From Stromatinia cepivora (taxonomy: Eukaryota; Ascomycota; Leotiomycetes; Helotiales; Sclerotiniaceae): 64,000 bases of DNA. The notes beneath the pieces were generated by a model, which had not been told where the DNA came from, ran no database searches, and saw nothing but the letters and a program-made list of their open reading frames with translations. The stretch lies in NCBI GenBank assembly GCA_014898415.1, contig RCTD01000015.1:496001-560000 (forward strand), given 5' to 3'. Both the position numbers and the translations under genes were made by a program. Shown here piece by piece: positions 8,617 through 54,961 of the stretch; within the stretch, counting starts at the first letter, position 1, and every line of letters starts with the position of its first letter.

Positions 8617-9684
8617 TCAAATCAATGCCTCATACTTATTGGCACAAGCGTCAACTTTGCTCAACAGCACAGTTTTTCTCTCATCGTCGCACCAACTTCC
8701 TTCAATTGCGCTGGTTGCAATGTATTTCCATTCCTTTAAATTCAAGCCAAATGCTTCTTGAACGGCAAGATAATTATCCAAAATGTAACTACCGAAGTAA
8801 GCTGGGTCGTCACTGTTGATGCTGAATTTAATTCCTGCATCCAAGAACTTTCGAATTGGCAATTGTCCAACATTCTTGACACACCTCAAGCGAACATTGC
8901 TGAGTGGGCAAACTGTCAACATTGTCCCCTGCTCCGCTACTCGCTTTAACAAATTTTCATCTTCAGCCAACCTAATTCCATGATCAATTCTTTCCACTTT
9001 GCAGATGTCGAGTGCTCTGGAAATGTAAGAAGTGTCACCTTCCTCACCAGCATGAGCAGTTCGACGAATTCCTTTGGTTTCTGCAGATTCATAAATCTCT
9101 CTGAAAATTTCTGGTGGGAAACCAACCTCACTGCTATCAAGGCCAATAGCAGCTACAGTTCCATTTGAAAAGTGACCCAACGACATTGCTTCCTGATATG
9201 TAGTGTTGGCATCCTCAGCCGACAAGTGTCGCAAGAAGCATAGAATGAGTTTTGAGGTGATACCAAAATCCTTCTCAGCGCGCTTTAGTCCAGCAGAAAG
9301 ACCCTTAACAACAGTGTTGTACGTAATTCCACGTTCAGTGTGTGCTTGTGGATCGAAGAAAATTTCGGCATGGTGAACACCGTCGTGATTTGCTTTGGTG
9401 AGGTATTCGTAGGCCAAGCTTTCATAGTCCGCAGGGTTTATTAAAACTGACATGCCAATGTAATAGTAATGAAGGAAATCGTTGAGAGAAGTAAAACGTT
9501 CGTAGCGAGACTCGAGTTCTTCGGGAGATTTGAAAGAGGCATCAGTCGCAGAGTCTGGAAGGGCGATGTTGTTTGTTTTTGCCAGTTCGAATAGCAGAGC
9601 TGGAGACAGAGACCCCTCGATATGAATGTGATGCTCACATTTTGGGAGCTCCTTGAGGAACTGCTTCATATTCTCACCACACAT
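8617..9684 (-). CDS. AAH1: Adenine deaminase (adenosine deaminase superfamily, fungal Aah1 type)
   Basis: This 355-residue enzyme is predicted to hydrolyse adenine to hypoxanthine and ammonia in the purine salvage pathway, in the cytosol or nucleus. It is a single intact exon. The metal and catalytic motifs of the adenosine/adenine deaminase superfamily are all present: the N-terminal HxH (H19 and H21 in HHIHIEGS), HAGEE at 211-215 with the metal ligand H211 and catalytic E214, DHG with H235, and SDDP at 291-294 with D292 and D293. Length matches the 340-360 residues usual for fungal adenine deaminases. The start MCGENMKQFL is the first Met of the open frame; M6 is an alternative. A TATATATA element lies about 56 bp upstream of the start. 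Adenine rather than adenosine specificity is inferred from overall resemblance to Aah1-type proteins. Its neighbours give no functional link. Confidence 0.92.
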   Translation of the reverse strand: MCGENMKQFLKELPKCEHHIHIEGSLSPALLFELAKTNNIALPDSATDASFKSPEELESRYERFTSLNDFLHYYYIGMSVLINPADYESLAYEYLTKANHDGVHHAEIFFDPQAHTERGITYNTVVKGLSAGLKRAEKDFGITSKLILCFLRHLSAEDANTTYQEAMSLGHFSNGTVAAIGLDSSEVGFPPEIFREIYESAETKGIRRTAHAGEEGDTSYISRALDICKVERIDHGIRLAEDENLLKRVAEQGTMLTVCPLSNVRLRCVKNVGQLPIRKFLDAGIKFSINSDDPAYFGSYILDNYLAVQEAFGLNLKEWKYIATSAIEGSWCDDERKTVLLSKVDACANKYEALI

Positions 9685-9739
9685 TTTGAATTATTATATT
9701 GAAAAGATTTTGTGTGACGAAGGACTCGAGATCGTAAAG

Positions 9740-21441: not shown

Positions 21442-23170
21442 ATGTTTTAAAAAATAATAAAACGAGTGGCAGCTCTTTTTATTATTTTCGGCACCGAGGG
21501 GCCGGACTCAAAACTCGTATATATATCCTTTACATTGCATTATCAATTATACACAGCAGATGAGTGTGCCGAGTTCACAAATCAAGAATTATTATGAACT
21601 TAGTGCTGACTGATGGTTTAATTTTGAGTTTTTTTATAGTTATAGTATGGTATTATATTACTCTCATTGACTCTATGTTGCGCTTATACCCCCACCCGAG
21701 ATTATGTTTTTAAAGAACAGGATTCTAACCTTATTGGCCTCAATCGAGATTGATCAACTGATTATAGATTCTTCCCTCCTTCTATAAATCCACCCTCCCA
21801 TTATAAAATCTATCTTCTCATCACAAACAATATCATCTTCACATTACTATTATAAAATTACTCTTTTACTATAAATTCTATCTTTTTATTATAAATTCTA
21901 CCCTCCCGTCACAAACACCACCATCTTCACACTACTACTATGAATTCCACCCTCCCAATATAAATTTTTACCCCCCTCCCCCACCCCTTCTATTCCTCCC
22001 AAAAATATCAAAAAATCTATATAGATTCTAACTATCTCAGACTAGATTCTAAATAGTAGTATCAAAGTAAAATACACTAAATTCTTATAATATCTAAATA
22101 ATTTATTTCACTTATAGTGATATGAGAGTAATTTACCGTATATTATTTCATCACATTACATCTAATAGAAATATTTCCAAGAAATACTAAAAATACATTG
22201 TGGAAGATTTATTCATAATAACAATAATAATAATAATGTAATATCCTGATTTAATATTTAATGTTTTATATATACATATATAAAAAATTAAAATTACTCC
22301 CCTAGATCAACCCTCCATCTCTTATGTCCTTCCCCCCATCTCTTCCCTCCAAACTAATCATAACCATTCATTTTCATTCATTATCTAATTTCCTGATATC
22401 TGACAGGTCCTCTCCAACTCCTCACCGGATTTCCAAATTCCCTTCCCCTTCCTCCCCGCCTACTCCAACTCTAACTCCTAAACCTAGCTAATTTTCCCAA
22501 TCCAAGTATTGCCCCCCTTCCCCGCTTTCCCCCATTTCATCAATTACCCATCCACCCCTATATTTTCCACCCTCCCAGTTCCTCCCCCTCGTCTCCTTCC
22601 TCATCTTTCCTCATCCTTTCCCTTTCCCATCCATGATTCCCGCTTCTTCTATTACAACCATAGCTATCATAGCTATAATTATCATTCACATTCCCTGTTT
22701 CTCCTCATAGCCCTCCCCCTCCTCTCATCCCTATCCCCAAGTATCGCTCTCCCACGCCTCCTAACACCGTATCCAAATCCAAATCCGAATCCACCTCCAT
22801 CCCCAACCACATCTTCACACTCATAACCCCCCTCTCCCCATCAAATTCCTCGCTTTCTCCATCCCCCAGCACTTCTTCATCCTCCTCCTCCTCCCTTCTT
22901 TCCCCCCATCCCCATCCCCACCTCCCATCCCCAACCCCAACCTAACCCAGCACACTACCCACCACCTTATCCGCTTAATAAAACCGGATACTATAGATTG
23001 AAGGGTTACATCGCAGGAAGCTCTACAGTAAGCATTATGTATCAAGCACCCAATGTTGATTTACCGGATCGTAGAAGTGATGTATATGAGAAGGCTGAAG
23101 AGGTAGAAATATGTAATCAGCCACTGATATGAAGTAAAAACTCAGATTAATCTATAGATTACATTAACCG
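21442..23170. other. AT-rich then C/T-rich spacer with degenerate repeats, no gene recognised
   Basis: From about 21760 to 21990 there is a degenerate repeated motif (variants of CCACCCTCCC, TATAAATTCTA and CACAAACA..ATCTTCACA), probably an eroded tandem duplication. The part from 22310 to 22940 is a C/T-rich tract with low-complexity reading frames only. The end of the stretch should hold the 3' UTR of the minus-strand regulator. Confidence 0.4.
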
Positions 23171-25982
23171 CTACCAAGTCTGACCATAAGTGTTACCAGG
23201 CTGGCCAGTGAAGGCAGGAAGATCTCCATCTAATAATGTTTGCCAGTATTCCCAATCCATAGGCGTGATATCAGGCATTGAAGTATCAAGAAAAGAATCC
23301 GAGGCCAGCCAAGGCTGTTCCTGAGGCATTTGCATTGAACGTGCAGCTTGTGATGGTTGTGGTGGTGGTATGCAATCAGGTGGTTTGTGTCTAACATAAG
23401 ATTCAGCTGTAGCGGGCATTTGCCAGTGATCTACCGTTCTGAATGGATCCAAAATATCATCATGTTGCTCTACAGATCTTTGAACGTGGTCGTGTTTTTG
23501 CCTCTGGGATCGCAGAATTGATATAAACTTTGGTGGTGTGACTTGATCTGGTGAATTTCCACCTTCTCTTTTTTCCCAAGCTTTGAGTACCAAATTACCC
23601 AAGGCAAAATATAGGCTATTCTTAGTATCATTAAGCATTTCCGCACGAAACTCATATGCAAGTTCGACTTGTTGCCATGCTTTATCCACCAATTCTCCCC
23701 TTTCTCTGCGTCGAAGTTCGCTGAGCAAATATATAAATGTATCCACTTGAAAATGTACATGAATATGCCAGAGATACCTTTGGACAAGTTTTTCGGAATG
23801 ACCTATGCCATCATATTCAAGCATCTTCAATGATTCATTAAAAAGCATATCTCTTTCCTTCTGTGGCATACTCGCACCTTTATCAGGATATTGCCGTGGG
23901 TGATGAGCCATTAATCTCATCGTACAGATGACTGATTTGGCAACATATATCGACAGTAAATGTAAAGGTATTGATGGATCACAATATTGCAAATACTTAT
24001 CCTGAAGTCTGGCTTCCAATTCATCGATAGTCTTGTCTTTTTCAGTGATAACGTTCGAACATGGAGGAATATGCGATGGATCACCATGATGACCACCTCT
24101 ATGACCACGTCGGCCACCACCACCACCATCACCTCCATGTCCATGTCCATGTCCATGACCTCCATTGCCAAAGCTATTAGCTTTTCGAATGGCTTGTGAA
24201 ACTTCATATCGAATACAACAGAAAAGCATTTCAGTTGCTCCGGCTCGTTCAGGTGGAGGTTCTGTCATGTCGGGAGTGAGATCACTATCACTAACATTGA
24301 GTGGTAACTTTGTATCGAATTTTGCAAGCCACTGTGTGATATAAGTCAATAAAATCTTGAATAGAAATGGAGAAAATATTTTCAGGAAGACGATAAAGGA
24401 ATGTTGAGAATGGGGTGAGTTGCGACATAGAACGAGAATATATACTAACAGCAGGGAATCCTGCGCCACATAATTTTGCAGCAAAACCATCAAGGAAAAC
24501 TACCTGCCACCAAACTCTCCTTCTCATTTCTGTGTCGAAAGGAGATAAATTATGAGAAGATCCATCACGATGAATACCCAATCTTTGACCAATTCGAACA
24601 GCAGAACCTGTCAAGATCCAAAATGCATGAGCATCATAATGCTTACGAGCTGCAAGCTATTGATATGGAATTAATTACAAAAATACACAATTCGTTGCAA
24701 TGGTGCCAGGAAAAGATGTTGGTATTTGGGTCATTCGAGTAAAAGGAGACAAGGAATAGTAGGGCTAACTTACAAGAAATAAACAATAAGCTTGTAAGGC
24801 AGTCAAATTAAGGGATTTAATATATTTGACATTAATAAGAGCTTGTTGTGTAGCATGAGAGTATCTTGATAGAAGTACGGATCTTGGTTCATTGAAAGTA
24901 CTCTCACATTCATCGTCTTTTAGTGAGCCGATAGATAAAAGGTATATGGCGAACATTAGAGCTTCTGTAGGTTTCGGAATATGATCCATATCTGAAGTTG
25001 CTTCTAAGATCATCTCCTGAACTGTCGGAGCATGAAAAAGTTTTATCAATGGGTTCACATTGGTCAAAAAGATTTGCCATAACCTGAAAATTGTAACAGG
25101 TTGCGGGTGGAGGCTTCTCAGGTTTCTTTTTGAACTAATCAAGTTACCAAGAAGAATGGTTGATTCTTCTGGGAAGAGGGGATTGTCATTATTATCATCA
25201 TCTTCTGATGAAACTTGAAATGCATCTTTTGGATCTTGTAATTCATTACTGAGATTCTCCCAAACAGGGCTAAAGTCGGTTAGCAAATACATTCTAATCC
25301 GAAGGGATTCAAAGGAGAGCTCGCACTTTTCTATGTAACGAGAGTTACCATGTTTAGAAAACAATTGACCTTTTCCAACTTTAGAACCATGAGGACAACC
25401 CATGGAATGATGCCCATGTGATTCATGAGGGCCATGAGGACCGTGAGGACCGTGAGGACCATGGTTACATCGATGTTTCTGTGGCCCAGATTGATTCTCA
25501 TTATTGTCGGTCCCGGTAACTGTAGTAGCTTCTTTACCTTTACTGGTACTTGATAAAACTTGGTGAGTAGAACCTGATTCATCAGCACCTGCATCATCAG
25601 TGCCACTTGCATTTGCACTTCCAATACCACCAGTAACACCACCATTAACAGCATCAGCAACACCATCATCCTCAATTCGAATTCCATTGACCCTCAATAA
25701 ATGTTCATATTTTCTTAATCTTGCAGCCACATCCAATTCACTAAGTTTACGTCTTCTTCGACGTGGAGCAGCAGGTGTACTGGGAATACATTCAGCATGT
25801 GCTTTAAGACAATTTGAACATTTAGGTTTTTGTCGGTCGCATCGTACTTTTCTCTGTTGACAGAGAATACAAGAATGACCACGGGTTATCTTTTGATGTA
25901 TTGGTTGAGTTGGAGGTGGGATTGTAGAATCAGGAGGTTGTGGAGGGATTGTAGAATCAGGAGGTTGAGGAGAGGACTCCAT
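23171..25982 (-). CDS. Zn2Cys6 transcription factor with fungal-specific regulatory domain and His-rich linkers (three exons)
   Basis: Exons are 25982-24774, 24656-24450 and 24331-23171, all joined in phase 0, giving 858 residues. Introns are 117 and 118 bp (minus donors GTAAGT and GTTAGT, acceptors ATAG and CACAG). The splices restore the family text [16 protein letters not shown] and [17 protein letters not shown]. The N-terminus has a tandem duplication of QPPDSTIPP. The Zn2Cys6 cluster is complete with Cys 38, 41, 48, 55, 58 and 65, followed by a poly-Arg patch (74-78) and a short linker helix. The middle domain includes [19 protein letters not shown] and [20 protein letters not shown], encoded mostly by exon 2. 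Two His-rich stretches stand out: [19 protein letters not shown] at 174-192 and a HGHGHG/GGGGG run near 528. Target genes are not deducible. Confidence 0.88.
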
Positions 25983-26012
25983 GATGATGTGAAGATATAA
26001 GAAAATTAAAGT

Positions 26013-26160
26013 ATGAGTGGATGGATGAGTGGATGGATGAGTGGATGGATGAGTGGATGGATGAGTGGATGGATGAGTGGATGGATGAGTGGATGGATGA
26101 GTGGATGGATGAGTGGATGGATGAGTGGATGGATGAGTGGATGGATGAGTGGATGGATGA
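26013..26160. repeat. 12-bp minisatellite (ATGAGTGGATGG)x12
   Basis: The array is 148 bp, about 12.3 perfect copies of a 12-base unit, followed by two diverged GGATGGATGATAATT units. It sits 30 bp upstream of the regulator ATG at 25982, so it is probably transcribed as part of the 5' UTR. Because 12 is a multiple of three, it stays open in several frames and yields repetitive pseudo-proteins on both strands. These are not genes. Confidence 0.95.
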
Positions 26161-27239
26161 TAATTGGATGGATGATAATTGATGTGATGAAGGAGTCGTG
26201 AATTGACGGAGATTCGGAAGCTTCGGGAGTTTCATCAAGATTTCTTCCCCAAGATGCAACAACACCATAAATAAACCTCACTGATTTTTGCTGTTGGTCG
26301 AGCTTGTGATCATTACTTCAATATGAGGTCTTCAAATCCGTACAAATATTTTCTTTTCTCAATATCAAGTGATATTCAAGAGGGAGTGAGGCTAATTTGA
26401 TAGCATGGTGGTGGTTGTTTTTTTGATCAATTTCCTGAGGTTGTCTGGTCGGAGGTTCGGCATTTCTTCGGTCCCGACAAATGAATGTTCTTTCCTAATT
26501 TGTTCAATCTTTGAAGCTTTCTCATTGGTCTAGAAGGAGGTGAAAAAGCTCGTGAGCCTCATTATTACTTCAATTGGTAGGACAATAATATGAAGGCAAA
26601 GGGACGGTACAATTCATTTTTGTTGAAAGGAAGTTCTGTGTTATGTTACTCTTCACCCTCTCCACACTTTGTATATAATTACTTACTAATCTGCCAGAAA
26701 TACATTACCATAACCGTAACAGTGCCATTCTTTTGTTATTTACACTGTCGTTCTCCTCTTATCATCTATTCTTGCTGTCTTTGAGTTTTTGTGGGCAGCA
26801 GTTTATCAGCCTTCTGCTCTCACCTTTTGTTGTTCCTTGAATATTTTGCTCATCTACTACTTCAATGTGATTTTATCTCATATATAATATTAACATCGAG
26901 ATTCAGCAAACACGCTTTGACTGATATTATATTCATCTAAAGGATTTATTCATTCAAGGGATCTACTCATTATAAATATTGCACCTTCTTCATTTATATT
27001 TTCTGATCCAGAGTCCCAAAGTCGGCGACTTGATGTTATAAGTTTCCTAGCTCAAGAACCATTGCCAGCTCAAATTTCCTAGATTGTAGTCGATATCCGA
27101 TTATTGAGACGAGACTTCTCGTAAATGACTAATAAGGAAAAGTTATAATTAGACATCCCGCGTCAACCTAAGCAGTCAAAACCCAAAACTAATCAAAAAT
27201 ACACACACAGCCAACCACCACCAGCAATCTCAACAAGTA

Positions 27240-43000: not shown

Positions 43001-45510
43001 TTAGCTCGATATAAATGCGAGGTATATAACTTCCCAATCATTATTCGTAGAACTCATGGGATGAGGTACATACGAATCGCAACATTCAAGGAACCCGTCT
43101 GCTTGGATTCTGAGATATATAATCAAGAAAGAGGAGAAATGAGGAAGGGATGGGTACTAGGGATGAATGGCTAGCCTATTTATTAATGAATCTAATTATT
43201 CAGTATCCCCTCCGTCTTCTTCATTATTGAGTACGTCGTCATTATCACCATCGCAGTTTTTCACTGCCAGTAATATATAGAGATGTTTCCTTTCAAGAAT
43301 CGGGCTTTTTGTTTGAGAACAGTACTTTCGAATTCAAGCCGTATCTATTCCATTTCCACCCCTTTTTCATTGAAGTGCAAAAATCTAGTGACATTCGCCC
43401 CAAATCAAAAGACAATCTTAAGACACGTCACTACGAAGTTCCGCCTTTTGCTCTCCTTGATTATCCTTTGACAGTGTCAAATAAACCTGTATATTCGCAA
43501 AATGTCAATTATTGATCTATTTAAATACTCCAAGAATAGTTTAAATGGGGGTGCGGCGGGTTAGGAGTTTCGTATTTCCGGGTTTGGCGTTCGGAAGCTA
43601 TTGAGATGGGAGAATCTTGATTGTGGATATGCAATAAATTTGAAAATGGACTTGAGATTTGATCAAACTTCCGAGGATCTTGCTATAGAGAGTGTGCTTG
43701 CTATCACAGTGATATTACAATCCCGCTAGGTGAATCCCACGAAATTTTAGTATGGATTATAGGTCTTTTCCAACTCACATCTTTTTACTTTTACTAGGAC
43801 GCTCTGAGATTCGATATCCAAGTATATAAGGATACATCCTCCTCGTGTGATTGAAATAAACACAAGAGATACAAAGGTTTACAAAAACCAAAGGGCAGCA
43901 AGCAGACGGTTTGAATAACGCTGGCTCTTTGATTTTGGGGTAGTTTACTGATGCAGGGAATTCGGAAGTAAAAGTCGCCAGGAAGTACTAGTGGCCTGCG
44001 GAATTGATAATAAACTAGAATGAAGGAGCAGTTCACAGGCGATCTTCTTTCGAGCACAATCAATAGTTTCAAAATTTTATGTTGGACTCATTGATGACTG
44101 ATTATCTTTTCTAAGCATTGGTGAATTCGGTCGAGCCTCTCCATACCTACCAAAAGGCCTGGCTAGTTGTCATTGTCCTTGATTCGATACGCTTATTGTC
44201 ATCTTAATTAACATCACTTGCAGCAGTCAGGCCACACAACCTTCCCTCACGCAAACCCAATTTTCTCACCCATCTCTATCGCCTGTTAAATCGCTATTCT
44301 TCCTCGAATATTGTTCGAAAGAAATCAAAGCCTTGTCTCTGGAGTATGTCTATGTTACTAATATCATGAAGAAGGAAACAAATGTGCTTCTAGCGAAGTA
44401 TATATAGCGTCCTACCACGGATTTACAACGGTCTAGCAGGAGTTTGAGGATCTTCAATAACCTGTATTTTGAAGCAACGGCAGGGCACAAGGTATTTATA
44501 AACTTCGCCAAAGAATTTAGAGGAGAGGTGTCATAAAAATCTCCGGAAAGCTTTACTATGGTGTATCTAGAGACTTTGAGATAGCCTAAGCATAAAGCAA
44601 GTATATGAAACACACATTAGTCAATGTCTCTTTCTAATCATCCAACTGAAATTTCCACCGATTTTCACACCAGGTAAGGTATACCATCTTTGAACACACC
44701 CGGACCGGTTCAAACTGGATTCTGGAGTCAAGCATAGGTGGCATGTTTGCATTATCTGCCAAGAAAGTGAAATGATTGATTTCTCACTATTAAAATCAAT
44801 CAATTGTATATGTGACATGTGTAACGATAAGGGAGAAAGATTCAGTATGGCGATATTCTTGTCATCATTCTTTGTATTCGTTGCTATGAGTATATGCCAC
44901 CACCATCATCACTATCTCATTACTACTAGCGTTTAAATGATAATTCTGAACCTCGCATGTCCTCTGGCTCAACTCGTAATTTCCGTACACAATACCACAC
45001 GTGAATTTAAAGCGCAGAACTTCGGAAGCAATCGACACGACGGCCGAAGGAATATTTGTCACTCTTAAGCACAACTTCAACATTCACTCAAGAGCATGAA
45101 AAGCAATCGGGTGGGAAAGAGTCGCCTTATATATCGGTGTGGAATTGGTCTAAATTCATTGGATAGGAGGAACAAGAGCATAACTCTTCCAAGGCGAACT
45201 CGCACTCCTGGTATAGATTTTTCGTTGCGGAACATTATAGAGATTTATCCGCTCTGTATTTCCTCAAAAGGCCTACCCAGGTGGATCATTACTCAATATC
45301 TAAACGCTTTTATTTGCAATAATTAATAACTCAAGAATGACCGAAATTCTGACATAAAATTGTCACGGTGGTAATGGCACGTGACCTTAACCCTATGTTC
45401 CTTCCATAAAAACTCATTCACGACACTAAAAACGTTACTCTCTCCTAAACACCATTAAATACTAAGAGGCTTTGAACGTGGGCCTTGCCAAAACCCTGCT
45501 GCCGCAACAT
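37039..45510. other. 8.5-kb gene-poor region
   Basis: No recognisable gene, RNA gene, transposon or repeat array was found in this long AT-rich stretch. The longest frame from an ATG is 185 codons (37757-38314, plus). It has a hydrophobic stretch (CVFLILILLLSSAS) but no recognised domain. All other frames are under about 95 codons. The left end should contain the CENP-X-like gene promoter and the right end the 3' region of the fusion gene. Eroded genes or non-coding transcripts may be present but are not visible by eye. Confidence 0.4.
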
Positions 45511-48500
45511 TTACCGACCACGATGAACAGGGAATTCTGCAACAACCATAATGCTGATATCCTCAACACAAACCCCAGCTTTAACCAACAACTGTAGCAC
45601 CGCGCAAAGTGTCCTTCCCGTCGCAAGAACATCATCCACTACTACCACTGAATTACCTCTGCGAACCAGGTCCCGATTCATCCCAAACCTCTTTTCTTTT
45701 AACTCATGGAATTCCGTAGAAGAGATATGTGATGGGGATTTCAGGACGGAACTTGTAGGTGGAGGGAGTTTGCCAGACTCACGAATCAGTACCAATGGTA
45801 CACCAAGCACCATCGCTAAAGGTGATGCAAATACATACCCGCCGGTCTCGCAACAAACCAATTTATCGATCTTAGCCCATTCACCATTGAAATGATTCTG
45901 TAGTAGAGTGGTGACCAGGGCCAGTCCACCCGCCTGTTGAGAGATGTCAAGCACATGACGGAAAACTATCCCAGGGCGTGGAGATTCCAGTACTGCACGT
46001 ACCATACCAGCTAGCCGCATCAGATCCTCGTGGAGGAATGGGAGGAGATACTGCTTAACAAATGTTTTCGCCGCTTCGCTTCCATCTTTTTCATTATCGA
46101 AGATGAGACTAGGGCGATACTGTGTGGTTTTTGAGTTTAATTCAATGTTGCTGCATGTATCTTTATTTTCATCATTATCGTTACTGCCGGAATGATGCCC
46201 TTTACGAGTCGAGCGCACCGTTTGGCCAGCTTCGATTCGAACATCGAGAAGCCTCCTATCTGGTACGAGATGCGAAAATGTCGCAACCGGTGCCTCGTCT
46301 CTCATTCCAGTAATTAGCAACACGTCAACATTGCCAAAATCATGAACAACATTCTGAAAGTGTTCCATCGGTAGCTGAGGCCGTTGTACCACCTGATCGT
46401 GATAAAACACAGTCAACGCTTGACGATGTTTCTCCTTGTAGGAACGATCGGAAAGAAGCCTATTTGGGTCAGCCCCGGCAGCTGTCGCATATTCTCGCTT
46501 GGTGACATCGCTAATACTTGCTGAACATGCTGTGAATGTTTTGTGGGGGTATGCAGTTATTGCGGAGACAAAAATATCGGCGCAATAATCTTTACCGGCT
46601 GCGCTATCACCCGTGACAAGAATGATGAGTTTTTGTTTCACCGGCGGTTCTAGGAGCGGACAGGCGTACGCTATCACATTATATGGATCCAAAGTATGTT
46701 TTAGACGGGATAGATGTGGCAGATTTGGCCCGAAAGCTTTGGCTGCCAGTGCTTTGTCCCTAGGGTCTGGCCCAAGGTCGGCGCCGTACACTCCACTACA
46801 AAAGGGCAGCAAGTTTCTCGCGACATTGTAAACCCACTGTACAGCAGTTTGAGCAGTTTCGGTTCCATTCTGGTCGCGGGGCCACACACCAGTTATAACA
46901 CAGGCAAAATCCCAATCGCGACAGCCGAAAGCGGTGGCTTCTGTGGCTATATCACGCACCGCCCCATCACCTTGCAGTAGATGAAAATAATATAATGGCG
47001 AGGGGCGAGCCTGTATTGCCGCTAACAAGATATCTGCGATGTGCACACCTGTAATGTTCTTCAAGAATAAGCATCGTTTGAAGGAGGAGGTTTTGCCACA
47101 ACCGTGTCCGCCGTGCATCTCAGACATGTACATTTCAGTCTCGAACAAACCGACACCGTCCACTATTTTATGTTTGTTCTCTAAACCCAAGATGCTGGTT
47201 ACGGATTTGGGCACCTCAGGTGCTAGTATGGTTGTGGAAGCCTCGAATATGGTCAACCCAAGATGCAGCTGGTCGGAGTCCCAATAGAGATATGCGTCTA
47301 TGGACCAGTTATGAGGAAGACTCTTGGCAATGAAGTTGACATCAGACAGTTTGTTCTGCGCCGAAGTTTTGGACCTCATTGGGAATACCCAGTTTCGGAC
47401 GGAATAGGTCGGAGCTGGGTAAGCCTTGAAAGTAACGCTAATCACAATACCGAAGTTAGTTCCAGCTCCTCTTATTGCCCATAACAAATCTCTTTCGTCT
47501 TTGGAGCGCACTGCTCCAGCTGGCACATATTCGGTTGGTACCTGTCCGACATAAACAATCTGGCCAGAGTCAACGCTGACAAGCACAGCACCTACGATAC
47601 TGTCGCATGCGAGTCCGTGAAGCCTAGTTAGGTGCCCAATGCCGCCTTGTAACCACAAACCAGCACCTACACTTGGGCGGGACCCCATAGGCACTGCCAA
47701 ACCTGACGGTGTGATCTTGCGGACGATATCTTCAGTCTTACACCCGGCCTCAGCTACAACCAAATGATTAGATTTGGAGTAAGTATCGGTTTTGCCTACA
47801 TCGTCACTGGACGTTACAATGTGCACTTGGTTAAACGCTTCCATGTCGACGGAGACAACGTTGGGCCACATACAATGACCACTGTGTCCTCCACCGATAA
47901 TGGTAAGTCCAAATTTATGCTCCAAGGCCCATTGGACAAGCTGTTGGACGTGTTGTATCATTGCTGGTCTAAAGACATCAGTGGGCTGATGCAAGCGAGC
48001 TTCCCAGTTCTTGACTTCTCTCTTCCCTCTCACCTGTCCCAACTGTGAATTTTGACCGGGCAAGTCGATCGCACGTCTATTGAACGACGCCATACGTTGA
48101 GGTGAGCTGAACGAGAGATGGCTTGGGTGTGTTTCCTCATTGCAAGTCAAGGCGCGACATATTTTAATCCACTCGCATCGAACAGCCTCGTCTGACTCTA
48201 CATCCTGTTTGACGTAACCCGCGATGAAAGGGACAAAATTATTCAGTATTCCGTCGTCATTTTCCACTGTAACAGTCGCAGTAGGGAAAACTGCTGTGCG
48301 GTCGCAAGCCAATCTTTCAAGATCAAGAGCTTCGTCGCGGTGAAAAATCACTATTATTCCATCTCCTGGACTTTGAACAAGTAACTCTAGCGCACGTCGT
48401 ACGAATTCATGTTTGGGATTCATGCCATACATGCTATGACAGAAAAGAACAATGTCAAATCTCCCCCCATCATCAGTCTGTGTGCCATCCCTTGGCTCAG

Positions 48501-48921
48501 TATCAAGAGCAAAAGGGGCTCGGTAGATATTTGGTGGGTTTTCCAAAAGAGGCAGCGGGGACTCCAATTTTGATGAAGAGGAAATCCAATCTTCCAATCT
48601 TGTAGCTGACAACAGATTAGGCTCGAATGCAGAGTATCTTCTAATCTTCCGTCTTAGATGAATGGGCAGATAACCAAGTACGCTTTTAGAACCAGGTCCG
48701 ATTTCAAGTACCGAAATATTAGGGCGTGATTTCAATAGGGAGGTCAGAAGCTCATTGAGTTGCGGAATGATGAAGTCTTGATATGACGTCCATTCTGAGC
48801 CATGCATCAATATTTCGAAACCGGCACTGTACTGTGTATCGGATAGCGATTGATTTAAGGACGACGTGTTTGCCGTGTCCCACTCCTCGAGAGCTTGCTT
48901 CAAGTAGTCGAAACTGGCCAT
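45511..48921 (-). CDS. Four-domain fusion: methyltransferase-like, FAD-linked oxidase, PMK-type kinase and APRT-like phosphoribosyltransferase
   Basis: One uninterrupted exon encodes 1136 residues. Residues about 30-260 resemble a SAM-dependent methyltransferase (motif I VLEIGPGSKS, 71-80). Residues about 308-755 are a berberine-bridge/6-hydroxynicotine-oxidase-type FAD domain: IIGGGHSGHC with the likely flavin-linked H346, LWLQGGIGHLTRLHGLACD at 422-440, and the terminal DPYNVIAY. The usual second flavin-anchoring Cys is replaced by R415 in GSRPSVG. Residues about 763-965 are a P-loop kinase of the animal phosphomevalonate kinase type: Walker A GDSAAGKD (771-778), RLLSDRSYKEKHRQAL, and a C-terminal helix KTFVKQYLLPFL. 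Residues about 968-1131 match adenine phosphoribosyltransferase: RPGIVFRHVLDI, ETGGYVFASPLAMVLGVP, RESGKLP and the PRPP loop VVVVDDVLATGRT (1092-1104). The GTP cyclohydrolase I gene lies about 1 kb upstream on the same strand. A role in making a purine- or pterin-derived metabolite is inferred; the product is unknown. Confidence 0.85.
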   Translation of the reverse strand: MASFDYLKQALEEWDTANTSSLNQSLSDTQYSAGFEILMHGSEWTSYQDFIIPQLNELLTSLLKSRPNISVLEIGPGSKSVLGYLPIHLRRKIRRYSAFEPNLLSATRLEDWISSSSKLESPLPLLENPPNIYRAPFALDTEPRDGTQTDDGGRFDIVLFCHSMYGMNPKHEFVRRALELLVQSPGDGIIVIFHRDEALDLERLACDRTAVFPTATVTVENDDGILNNFVPFIAGYVKQDVESDEAVRCEWIKICRALTCNEETHPSHLSFSSPQRMASFNRRAIDLPGQNSQLGQVRGKREVKNWEARLHQPTDVFRPAMIQHVQQLVQWALEHKFGLTIIGGGHSGHCMWPNVVSVDMEAFNQVHIVTSSDDVGKTDTYSKSNHLVVAEAGCKTEDIVRKITPSGLAVPMGSRPSVGAGLWLQGGIGHLTRLHGLACDSIVGAVLVSVDSGQIVYVGQVPTEYVPAGAVRSKDERDLLWAIRGAGTNFGIVISVTFKAYPAPTYSVRNWVFPMRSKTSAQNKLSDVNFIAKSLPHNWSIDAYLYWDSDQLHLGLTIFEASTTILAPEVPKSVTSILGLENKHKIVDGVGLFETEMYMSEMHGGHGCGKTSSFKRCLFLKNITGVHIADILLAAIQARPSPLYYFHLLQGDGAVRDIATEATAFGCRDWDFACVITGVWPRDQNGTETAQTAVQWVYNVARNLLPFCSGVYGADLGPDPRDKALAAKAFGPNLPHLSRLKHTLDPYNVIAYACPLLEPPVKQKLIILVTGDSAAGKDYCADIFVSAITAYPHKTFTACSASISDVTKREYATAAGADPNRLLSDRSYKEKHRQALTVFYHDQVVQRPQLPMEHFQNVVHDFGNVDVLLITGMRDEAPVATFSHLVPDRRLLDVRIEAGQTVRSTRKGHHSGSNDNDENKDTCSNIELNSKTTQYRPSLIFDNEKDGSEAAKTFVKQYLLPFLHEDLMRLAGMVRAVLESPRPGIVFRHVLDISQQAGGLALVTTLLQNHFNGEWAKIDKLVCCETGGYVFASPLAMVLGVPLVLIRESGKLPPPTSSVLKSPSHISSTEFHELKEKRFGMNRDLVRRGNSVVVVDDVLATGRTLCAVLQLLVKAGVCVEDISIMVVAEFPVHRGR

Positions 48922-49930
48922 GTTATTTCAGCATGAACGATAAATGAGGGAAAAGATAAGCTCAATGGAAAAAGAGAGATGGCTATATACACATCGCAAC
49001 AAACATAAAGTTCCATGACAAGAGGTCTTTCAGCCACTTGCCTGAAACTCCACAATGAAAGATGACGCACTTTTCAAAACTAACAGTGCGTTTGTGGAAA
49101 CATCAAATTTGTAAGAACAAACCACTTACTAGAGCAATTTCCACCATTGCTTCGCAATCAACGAAATTCGAAGGATGGATGGCTCAAAGCCGTTCGTGTC
49201 AGGCAATAAAAACAGAATGTTTGATAGGACATGTTGAAATCACCTCGGTTGTGACCATCTACCTTCATTATCATGGTAAGATTAGGGATTGTGTTGATTG
49301 ATGTTACCTAGATATTTAGAGGTTGCTTGCTACGAGAGCTTTAAGCTAGATGGCGAAGATATAGCGTGAGGCTAGTGCACATGTCCTTATTCGCTAGTAT
49401 TGCAATAGGAAACTAATAAATAGGTTCAGGATGCGCGTAGCACATATCTTGATTGACTGCAGTTATACATACAATCTTCGATACAGATTGTGACCGGTGT
49501 AGTGGCTGGTGCAGAGGCTGATTGATTACCTTGTTCCTGCATGCATTGTGTAACCGGTGGTTGACTGGTGCGACGGACACAAGACAAAACCAAACGAGAA
49601 TCAAATGGGAATCTACGGTAATTAATGTCTTGATGATATATTTTGCTGGAAACATTCTATTCGGCACGAATGAGTTTTACATCTTGGCGCCAATTACAGG
49701 CAGAAAGAGCTAATGTGACGCCATAACAGCAGCATCTCTCATGAGGAGGCATACTTCTTTTTACATTTTCTGCTATCAAGCCATAAAAGCTGGATTATGT
49801 CACTTAAAAATGCATTAACTTGTCATTGTAAGAACTCGATTCCCTGTGTTCACTGTCGCTTGCGACGATATCCTATCAGTCTGTTGGTACAAAATTCTCG
49901 CGATCTTTCATTATTTCTATTGAGTGCAGA
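48922..49930. other. 1-kb spacer between the two same-strand cluster genes
   Basis: The stretch separates the cyclohydrolase stop from the fusion gene start, so the fusion gene has room for its own promoter. A TATATA at 48984-48989 (63 bp upstream of the ATG) is a candidate TATA box. No other gene was recognised. Confidence 0.4.
48984..48989 (-). promoter_or_regulatory. TATA-like element upstream of the fusion gene
   Basis: TATATA lies 63 bp upstream of the fusion ATG on the minus strand, at a distance plausible for a TATA box. This is weak evidence in AT-rich DNA. Confidence 0.3.
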
Positions 49931-51078
49931 CTAGCCTCTCTGTCTCATATTGAGTAGAGCATGAAAGTTTTTCTGTTCTTTCATGTCATGTTTCAACAAG
50001 CCACTCATGCATTGAGTCAATGTCAAGGACCCGGTCTTCTCTACACCTCTCATCATCATGCACATGTGTTTACACTCCAAAATCACAGCAACACCTAGCG
50101 AGCTCAAGACCTCCTCTATCGCCTCTGCAATCTGCTTCGTTAACCGTTCCTGCACTTGTAGTCTGCGTGAGAAGATTTCAATGATGTGCAGTAGTTTCGA
50201 CAATCCGATTACCCGGCCGTTGGGAATGTATCCGATGTGTACCTTGATTTTTCTATGTTAGTCTATGAATGAATGGCAAATAAAAATATGAGGGAAACAC
50301 ATTTCTTGAATGGATCTGGTAGATGGTGGCTAGTGGATGTACGGATTCATGAGCCGAACTCAAAGTTGAGTAAAAACGATTCCACAAGGCTTGTTTGTAC
50401 ACTCCAAAACAAATGGAATCATCCAGTCCATATCGGAAAGGAAACCATAAAATTGGAGCTGAACAAATTGAGGTCTAGCCTAGTCCTGCATGAAATTCAT
50501 GGAAAGTTTCATGATCCATACACCCAGAATCAAACCAACGCACGGCGCGTCTAGGGGAGAAAAACCTACCTTTCCAAAAAAAACGGTAACATGTGATGCT
50601 CACACAAGCTAGAAACATTAATGTCACTTACAATGACGATATCCTTCGTATCGACATTGAAAATGGCACCGTTAACCACATCTTCGACCCTTCCTTTATA
50701 TCCTTTGGTAAGGTCTAGAAGTGCTTTGCCGTAGCGGCTAGGTGTATTCTGAAGGCCTTCACGGCCGGGATTCTCGCCGATCTGCAACAGAAGTGTTTTT
50801 ACCGTGGCTGCTATCTCGCTTTGGGCAGATGAGGGAAATGGGTTGTCTACAATCTGGCTAGATTGTGATTGTCCGACGAGAGTTTCTTCTGAGGTAGCTA
50901 AACGTTTTAGATTGGCCACAAAGTTGTGAAGAGAATGGAGGGCATGCTTACCTTGCTCGATGATATCATGATCAATCGTTTCTTGAATAGTAATCTTCTT
51001 TAACAAAGCTAAAAATTCGATCTCATTCTGGCTGGGAAGACTCGGGGCTTCGTTTGCAGAACCAGAGTTGGTAGACAT
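49931..51078 (-). CDS. Divergent GTP cyclohydrolase I with a double-frameshifted internal segment
   Basis: Exon 1 is 51078-50570 and exon 2 is 50243-49931. The intron is unusually long for this window (326 bp; donor GTAGGT, branch ACTAAC, acceptor TCAAG). The joined frame encodes 273 residues. GTP cyclohydrolase I opens GTP to 7,8-dihydroneopterin triphosphate, the entry to folate and pterins. Visible family text: [24 protein letters not shown] at 159-162, GRVIGLSK at 179-186, [17 protein letters not shown] and [11 protein letters not shown]. Predicted zinc ligands are C159, H162 and C231; H161 and H229 match catalytic positions. Near the splice the conserved GKVHIGYIP is not read. A T8 run at about 50576-50583 shifts the frame and an extra A at about 50219-50222 shifts it back, giving [10 protein letters not shown] instead. 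The sequence around [18 protein letters not shown] is more divergent than in typical housekeeping enzymes, so a paralogue is likely. Function depends on whether the altered segment is real. Confidence 0.8.
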
Positions 51079-53559: not shown

Positions 53560-54640
53560 ATATTATGATTTATTCTAGCAATTCAAAATAATACTCATTT
53601 TGACGTCTTCCCAAACTAATATCCCCCATCTAATCACTTTTAGAATATCAAGCTCTTTAAAATAATTCAGATCATTATCAAAGCATTCAACTATGAATCT
53701 AACAGCTCATCGTCATAAATAAAGCTTCCAATTCTATATAATACTTTGATCAAGAGATTGAAATTTAAACATAGAATTTAAAGGCAATCATATAATCTTC
53801 ATATTACATAATTTGCCAGTTTCAAAAAAAGTAATAACAGTTAATTCGTATACAGAGAAGTTATCCATAATAAGCAAAGCCTTCTTTTTCATCTGCTTTA
53901 TAATCCTATCGAATCATATAAGATATTTAGCGAAAATCCCATTATTCATTCAGGACTTCGAATTCGATCGATATTTCACCCTTAAACTATCGAGAATTGT
54001 CAACCCTGATCTTCTAAATATTTATGGAATATATACTTTCCCAATAATCTATAAAGGGAGTTTATAAATACCTATAGAATTGCTAATAAGGAGTATTATA
54101 AATCGAACTTTTTCCTTCTTTCTACCAATAGATTCGAATATAGAAAATATACGATTTAATTTATCTCTTCAAAAAAGCCTTGTTTTATTGCAATTGTAAA
54201 TATCATCTATATCATATGAAATTGCAATACATCATATCTCTTCCATTATAACCTCTAATTCAAAACTTATATCTACAAAAGTTTCTTTATCAAATCGATA
54301 TCTTTTTTGCATAGAATTATATCTTTTGAAACTATCAATAAAATTAATTGATCAAATCTTCTTTTTATCGAATAATAAAGATTTATCCTTATATTCAAAA
54401 AGCTTTTTCCAGAATTCTGTAACTTTTAAACATAAAACATCGTTTGTAGTAGATCCTGCATTGGGGTGACGATTGTATCGAATCTGTCATTCAAACAGAG
54501 CTTCTTCGAGAGCAGGGTATATAGGAGGCCGAATCTTATATTGATTTAATTCGTATTGTGTGAATTCTGTTCGATCGAGCCATTCGAATTTCGTACTTAA
54601 AAGATCACTAATAATCGATTTCTTCAACTCTATACTATAT
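53560..54640 (-). pseudogene. Degraded pogo/Fot1-type DDE transposase
   Basis: Reading the minus strand, conserved blocks of fungal pogo/Fot1 transposases appear in one main frame, broken by stops. They include PALEEALFE near the N-terminal side, then IYNCNKTRLF, SIFESIGRKKEKVRFIILLI, VKYRSNSKS, ALLIMDNFSVYELTV and KELDILKVIRWGIL. The first catalytic aspartate lies in the family motif NCDETGLFW. Here D, E, G and W read as N, K, R and stop, each a G-to-A change on this strand. The second catalytic D in MDNFS is preserved. This is a dead copy of a once functional transposase. Confidence 0.88.
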
Positions 54641-54961
54641 TGAGCTTTGTATTATACTATTACATTATCGTGCCTCCTTTTCCTGTATTTAAGATCCTGC
54701 CATCATACTCTTAAAGCTTTTTTTTATTGATTTGATGAATTGATTCGAGGGCCATAATGATCGACTCTTTTCGGCTTTTTCGACGACGACAACGATGACG
54801 ATGATAATGTCGTTATATTCGAAGATTCACCCTTATTAGCATGTAGTATATTGATCAATAATAAGGGTTTATACCGGAATTCAGTCAATTCAGTCCGGTA
54901 TTCCGGTTTTCATCGAAATTCCGGTATTCCCATATAAATTTCGGAAAAAAGGAGAAAAAAT

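Follow-up and report, generated by a model that had tools for sequence, protein, structure and literature searches.

In the genome of Stromatinia cepivora (Leotiomycetes, Helotiales, Sclerotiniaceae), a gene for GTP cyclohydrolase I (GCH1) lies beside a gene for a four-domain fusion protein. The locus raises the question of whether the two genes form a metabolic unit, what it would make, and whether it still works in this fungus. The first-pass annotation of the 64,000-nt stretch analysed here (the window) had described a divergent GCH1 about 1 kb from the fusion, on the same strand and in gene-poor DNA, and had proposed a dedicated route to a pterin- or purine-derived metabolite. We give an even chance to the reading that the two genes are a linked unit found in other fungi as well, which likely makes a pteridine metabolite and is likely disabled in S. 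cepivora.

The GCH1 gene has two exons and occupies 51078-49931 on the minus strand, as do all the parts given here. Exon 1 (50570..51078) starts with the ATG at 51078 and carries the CEHH zinc motif near its end. The intron of the deposited model (50253..50569) has 317 nt, and exon 2 (49931..50252) holds the remaining active site, the HMC motif and the stop codon. PF01227 matches both open reading frames (5.6e-22 and 1.3e-39) and covers the gene over its length. The 276-aa model is identical to EAF04_006574 of S. cepivora (P0121). GCH1 is the upstream gene, and 1,009 bp separate it from the fusion on the same minus strand, which bears out the spacing of the first-pass annotation. According to the family search, the genome (55.7 Mb, 48 contigs) contains two GCH1 genes, each found as two matches: the window copy and one on contig C36. 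The latter is of the housekeeping type, and the second, housekeeping gene that a dedicated route implies is thereby present. Window gene and C36 copy have their intron at the same position, as would be expected of an old paralogue within eukaryotes and less of a gene recently imported from bacteria.

The relationship of the two copies was analysed with a tree of 51 GCH1 sequences: 48 of the 120 listed proteins, the copy on C36, and those parts of two joined gene models that correspond to GCH1. Seventeen sequences, the window copy among them, form one clade (GCH1-B) with a support of 99/95, and the same clade is obtained at 96 in another tree. Its members are eight Sclerotiniaceae, four Xylariales, Apiospora, two Aspergillus (Aspergillus pseudocaelatus and Aspergillus avenaceus), Penicillium salamii and the GCH1 part of the joined model of A. 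glaucus. The C36 copy groups with other GCH1 of fungi, outside GCH1-B. A quick tree of 119 of the 120 listed proteins and the two joined parts again brings the same 17 sequences together (0.95), with a weak inner node (0.22), and the next to join them are one protein (P0197) and then eight more. These trees indicate that the window GCH1 belongs to a clade of its own and not to the housekeeping one. A mite protein (Medioppia subpectinata, P0124), which seems to contain two consecutive GCH1 domains, was included in the first tree and excluded from the later ones (those based on the 48 sequences, and the quick tree).

The fusion gene (45511..48921, minus strand) is a single open reading frame of 1,136 aa with the ATG at 48921 and the stop codon at 45511-45513. 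It encodes a methyltransferase domain (about residues 1-290), an FAD-binding oxidase domain (about residues 300-755), a PF04275-type kinase domain (residues 766-890) and a phosphoribosyltransferase domain like that of adenine phosphoribosyltransferase (APRT; residues 967-1136). PF01565, PF04275 and PF00156 match at 3.5e-14, 3.5e-18 and 4.7e-22, respectively. The Methyltransf_23 match taken alone is below the cut-off (0.0011); the E-x-G-x-G motif and a Rossmann-type fold were both found in this part. The gene is single-copy, and eight other matches in the genome are partial stretches with identities of 33-46%. The fusion belongs to an uncharacterised family that is found widely in Pezizomycotina.

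Motifs were counted in an alignment of 64 of the 140 listed fusions. All 64 keep the core positions of the methyltransferase motif E-I-G-x-G, of the FAD motif GGHS (with H346 aligned to 6-HDNO), and of the phosphoribosyltransferase motif D-V-x2-TG, together with the kinase P-loop G-x4-GKD, after which an R-x-YKE block is also present. Within the PRPP-binding motif, D1097, T1101, G1102 and T1104 are present in 64 of 64 sequences and D1096 in 63. The histidine is that of covalent FAD oxidases (BBE/VAO type), and a covalent flavin bond is predicted. The kinase domain, whose Pfam family PF04275 is that of animal-type phosphomevalonate kinase (PMK), scores 27.1 bits against the PMK equivalog cut-off of 188.15 bits. 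The structure model of the full-length fusion is poor (mean pLDDT 60.8), and only its FAD match was used, because it agrees with the sequence. The N-terminal 300 residues, modelled separately, gave a better model (79.5), and the nearest fold of the methyltransferase is that of a ring-nitrogen methyltransferase.

Is the proximity of the two genes peculiar to S. cepivora? All 140 listed fusions were compared for linkage with the 16 listed GCH1-B sequences and, in addition, with the first 80 of 120 GCH1 proteins, and neighbourhoods outside the window were judged from locus tags, contigs of matching length and joined gene models. Among the matches listed, six species have both the fusion and GCH1-B, and in all six the two genes are on one contig: the window species, Sclerotinia trifoliorum, Botrytis galanthina, Monilinia vaccinii-corymbosi, Xylaria acuta and Aspergillus glaucus. 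For 11 of the 16 listed GCH1-B species no fusion is among the matches listed. In B. galanthina the tags are adjacent (BGAL_0364g00040 and BGAL_0364g00050, on a 41-kb contig). Both genes of X. acuta are on a 444 kb contig. The contigs of S. trifoliorum (3.55 Mb) and M. vaccinii-corymbosi (3.36 Mb, with tags 38 apart) exceed 3 Mb and are weak evidence by themselves. GCH1 and the fusion are joined in one annotated model in two of the 140 listed fusions, those of A. glaucus (1,384 aa) and Rutstroemia (1,404 aa). In both, GCH1 is N-terminal, which is the order of the window. The A. glaucus model lacks the last part of GCH1 and the first residues of the fusion, as expected from the merging of two neighbouring genes. 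With Rutstroemia, linkage by a shared contig or a joined model extends to seven species.

The GCH1 joined to the fusion in Rutstroemia is of the housekeeping type and stands beside Drepanopeziza in the trees. Its grouping with GCH1-B was rejected (p 0.022) in a test for which the group was named after the tree had been seen. As this GCH1 lies outside GCH1-B, a second GCH1 lineage occurs at the same place. It thus appears that a GCH1 came to stand ahead of the fusion on two occasions, the one in Rutstroemia apparently independent.

Two neighbours might also have been kept together by chance where rearrangement is low. Consistent with this, most of the named fusion-bearing species have no GCH1-B among the matches listed, Ciborinia, B. 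elliptica and B. fragariae being examples, and the Monilinia genes are far from adjacent. Against it stand the shared contigs in six of six species across Sclerotiniaceae, Xylaria and Aspergillus, even with the two large contigs counted as weak, and the separate GCH1 type joined to the fusion in Rutstroemia. We regard chance as very improbable. According to these sequence comparisons, the link between GCH1 and the fusion is no accident of the S. cepivora genome. That the genes be neighbours in some other genome, without which the earlier proposal would have been refuted, is borne out, directly in B. galanthina and the two joined models, and as linkage on the same contig in S. trifoliorum, X. 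acuta and Monilinia. That a conserved four-domain enzyme is repeatedly linked to a GTP cyclohydrolase I of its own is a concrete lead to the enzyme's substrate.

The surroundings were examined by a six-frame Pfam scan (E<=0.01, with X at stop codons) over 37.4-45.4 kb and 51.15-60.35 kb. The only Pfam-recognised gene in these two stretches encodes a DDE_1 transposase with an HTH_ABP1_N domain (53578..54735, minus strand), a neighbour outside the system, and in terms of Pfam-domain genes the DNA is gene-poor, as had been described. The transposase is located about 2.5 kb upstream of GCH1 in AT-rich DNA, with a GC content of 0.28-0.31 at 53-55 kb. Fungal biosynthetic gene clusters comprise several co-located biosynthetic genes, often with a regulator or transporter. 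Here there are two genes only, and besides the transposase no Pfam-recognised gene is found within 8-9 kb. The suggested pteridine route has no polyketide or peptide synthase, and cluster finders based on such backbone genes would miss a locus of this kind. Ordinary genes are present farther out, among them an open reading frame of the adenosine deaminase family (8617-9690, minus strand; PF00962 at 1.6e-101) and Zn2Cys6 regulators. One of the latter (24765-26231, minus strand) has an in-frame THPS repeat just ahead of its likely start. The stretch 22001-23000 shows a GC skew of -0.725 (C over G), the most extreme among the 64 stretches listed.

What could the two genes make together? GCH1 enzymes convert GTP to dihydroneopterin triphosphate. 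A plausible best reading, with the chemistry inferred from the domains, is that the two genes provide a compact route by which GTP becomes a pteridine that is methylated, oxidised and ribosylated. GCH1-B would form dihydroneopterin triphosphate, which ordinary folate enzymes may trim. Oxidation of the pterin ring would fall to the FAD domain and methylation of a ring nitrogen to the methyltransferase domain, and the phosphoribosyltransferase domain would add ribose phosphate from PRPP. Either the product or some intermediate would be the substrate of the kinase domain. With a GCH1 besides the housekeeping one, the route could draw GTP independently of folate synthesis. Thus the dedicated route proposed earlier gains from the recurrence of the linkage in other fungi, and its pterin product is plausible. 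The 7-deazapurine branch of that proposal gained no support; it was set aside as no Pfam-recognised supporting gene lies within 8-9 kb.

The unit might also be functional with a purine or another base as the substrate of the fusion, in which case GCH1-B would supply only a cofactor or an early ring-opened product of GTP. The best PDB matches of the phosphoribosyltransferase domain are purine phosphoribosyltransferases, as the domain itself would be, and many fusion-bearing fungi lack GCH1-B among the matches listed. However, the position of the Arg of the RGF motif, which we take to be an adenine-site residue of APRT, holds Gly in all 64 aligned fusions, and this points to another acceptor. 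The loop Glu of APRT is not conserved in the fusions either. Moreover, a direct precursor fits better with the finding that GCH1 of two distinct lineages stands beside the fusion. A purine or other base as the substrate appears rather unlikely to us.

The pair had been taken as working, but both genes carry likely disabling changes in S. cepivora. The fusion ends at an early stop codon (45511..45513, minus strand), which frames and alignment place 22 residues short of the C-terminus of its relatives. Past this stop, the frame reads 21 more codons resembling the tail of the relatives. These form an untranslated remnant of the C-terminal tail up to the next stop (45445..45510, minus strand), as judged from the frames and the family consensus of the tail. 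All 63 aligned relatives extend at least 15 residues beyond the stop of the window fusion. At position 1080, in the phosphoribosyltransferase domain, the window has Gly where the 63 other aligned sequences have Glu. Otherwise the substitution load is ordinary: of 320 near-invariant sites, nine, position 1080 among them, have odd residues in the window fusion, nine to 11 in most full-length Sclerotiniaceae relatives and four in Ciborinia.

In GCH1, the unbroken frame is lost at the conserved intron junction. The relatives S. trifoliorum and Botrytis share a 12-residue reading across the intron. The acceptor that matches the relatives (exon 2 from 50242) results in a frameshift and a truncated product in the window gene. 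The earlier acceptor alone keeps the frame, and it adds residues that are absent from the relatives. The gene departs at four of 70 near-invariant sites, which, with its place outside the housekeeping clade, justifies calling it divergent. One of the four is at the splice junction; the other GCH1-B sequences depart at zero to two of the sites, and sequences outside the clade at up to five. Another is the Arg of GLSKxxR, presumably a triphosphate contact, which is His in the window gene and deviates in no other of the 51 sequences.

Intact copies of the genes exist in other species. The S. sclerotiorum fusion model (P0033) has only 902 aa, and the S. nivalis GCH1-B model (P0123) lacks CEHH, hinting at either wider decay or poor gene models. 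The shortened P0033 shows 24 odd residues at the 320 near-invariant sites and was excluded when these sites were set.

The pair may nevertheless be functional in S. cepivora. Errors of assembly could account for the T-run and the early stop, or splicing could use the alternative acceptor while the fusion tolerates the loss of its tail. No publication on how this genome was sequenced is among the literature matches listed. The deposited GCH1 model is indeed open over 276 aa by way of the earlier acceptor, and the fusion is open over 1,136 codons apart from its end. On the other hand, two separate lesions affect two neighbouring genes, the fusion tail is kept in 63 of 63 relatives, and the Arg to His change in GCH1 and the Glu to Gly change in the phosphoribosyltransferase are each without parallel in their alignments. 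We consider a functional pair doubtful. The sequences make it likely that both genes carry changes that disable them, and the pair looks newly damaged; the S. cepivora copy is probably failing.

The trees also bear on the origin of the pair in Sclerotiniaceae. In the larger fusion tree (49 of the 140 fusions, no outgroup), seven Sclerotiniaceae sequences are sister to Hypoxylon crocopeplum with a bootstrap of 100 (limited iterations), away from the other Leotiomycetes. A single clade of all Leotiomycetes fusions was rejected (p 6e-5, AU test) in a quick tree of 35 of those 49, the group having been named after the larger tree was seen. In the GCH1 trees, Sclerotiniaceae stand next to Annulohypoxylon moriforme (99 in one tree, 82/65 in the 51-sequence tree). 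These placements would be accounted for if a Hypoxylaceae-like donor among Xylariales had passed both genes jointly to Sclerotiniaceae. However, a Xylariales clade that excludes Sclerotiniaceae is not rejected by the GCH1 data (p 0.307), the fusion tree is unrooted with the family scattered over classes, and the fork of H. crocopeplum, Parahypoxylon and Durotheca is not settled in the 35-sequence tree, in which the tested group was chosen post hoc. A shared transfer is thus a tentative possibility, less probable than its absence, and we treat it as a lead from the trees and not as a result.

Among the literature matches listed for a fungal pterin cluster, the fusion or tags of the BCIN_03g00960 type, nothing concerns the pair. 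In PMC6557632, the B. cinerea GTP cyclohydrolase is Bcin02g03810, a gene other than BCIN_03g00960. Passages of PMC10657286 and PMC8703953 deal with pterins in fungi and mention no gene pair. According to the Results of PMC6330040, GTP cyclohydrolase I and pterin dehydratase genes are in excess in the tested gene group of P. solitum, possibly a related pterin locus.

Compared with known enzymes, the window GCH1 shares the Pfam family, the zinc and catalytic motifs and the intron position (that of C36) with housekeeping fungal GTP cyclohydrolase I of the FolE family. It differs in its separate clade, its linkage to the fusion and its damage in S. cepivora. The phosphoribosyltransferase domain resembles APRT in its sequence match and PRPP motif, and differs in the invariant Arg to Gly replacement, the unconserved loop Glu and the fusion to three other domains. 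The FAD domain resembles EncM, 6-hydroxy-D-nicotine oxidase and berberine-bridge-type oxidases in fold, sequence and the GGHS histidine. Unlike bicovalent oxidases, it has no Cys in the stretch that we take to hold the second flavin link, and it is one part of a four-domain chain. The bacterial routes to toxoflavin and other pteridine-like compounds likewise open with a cyclohydrolase acting on GTP and involve a methyltransferase. They differ from the fungal pair in using GTP cyclohydrolase II and other enzymes, and in being bacterial.

Asperopterin carries an 8-methyl group and ribose. Asperopterins A and B are blue-fluorescent pteridine compounds of Aspergillus oryzae, and asperopterin A is an isoxanthopterin glycoside according to reference titles (PMC6208954). 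Neither passages of that paper nor the literature matches listed name asperopterin genes, and A. oryzae is not named among the fusion and GCH1 matches listed. It is unlikely, in our estimate, that GCH1-B and one tetrafunctional enzyme constitute the whole pathway to asperopterin-type pteridine ribosides, a first genetic basis of fungal pteridine glycosides that was assembled with GCH1 from two lineages and that Stromatinia is now losing. The pair is a testable genetic candidate for such glycosides. By analogy, the asperopterins, A in particular, are the nearest known product type: like the output expected of a GCH1, an oxidase and a phosphoribosyltransferase, they combine a pteridine ring of the isoxanthopterin type with a glycoside.
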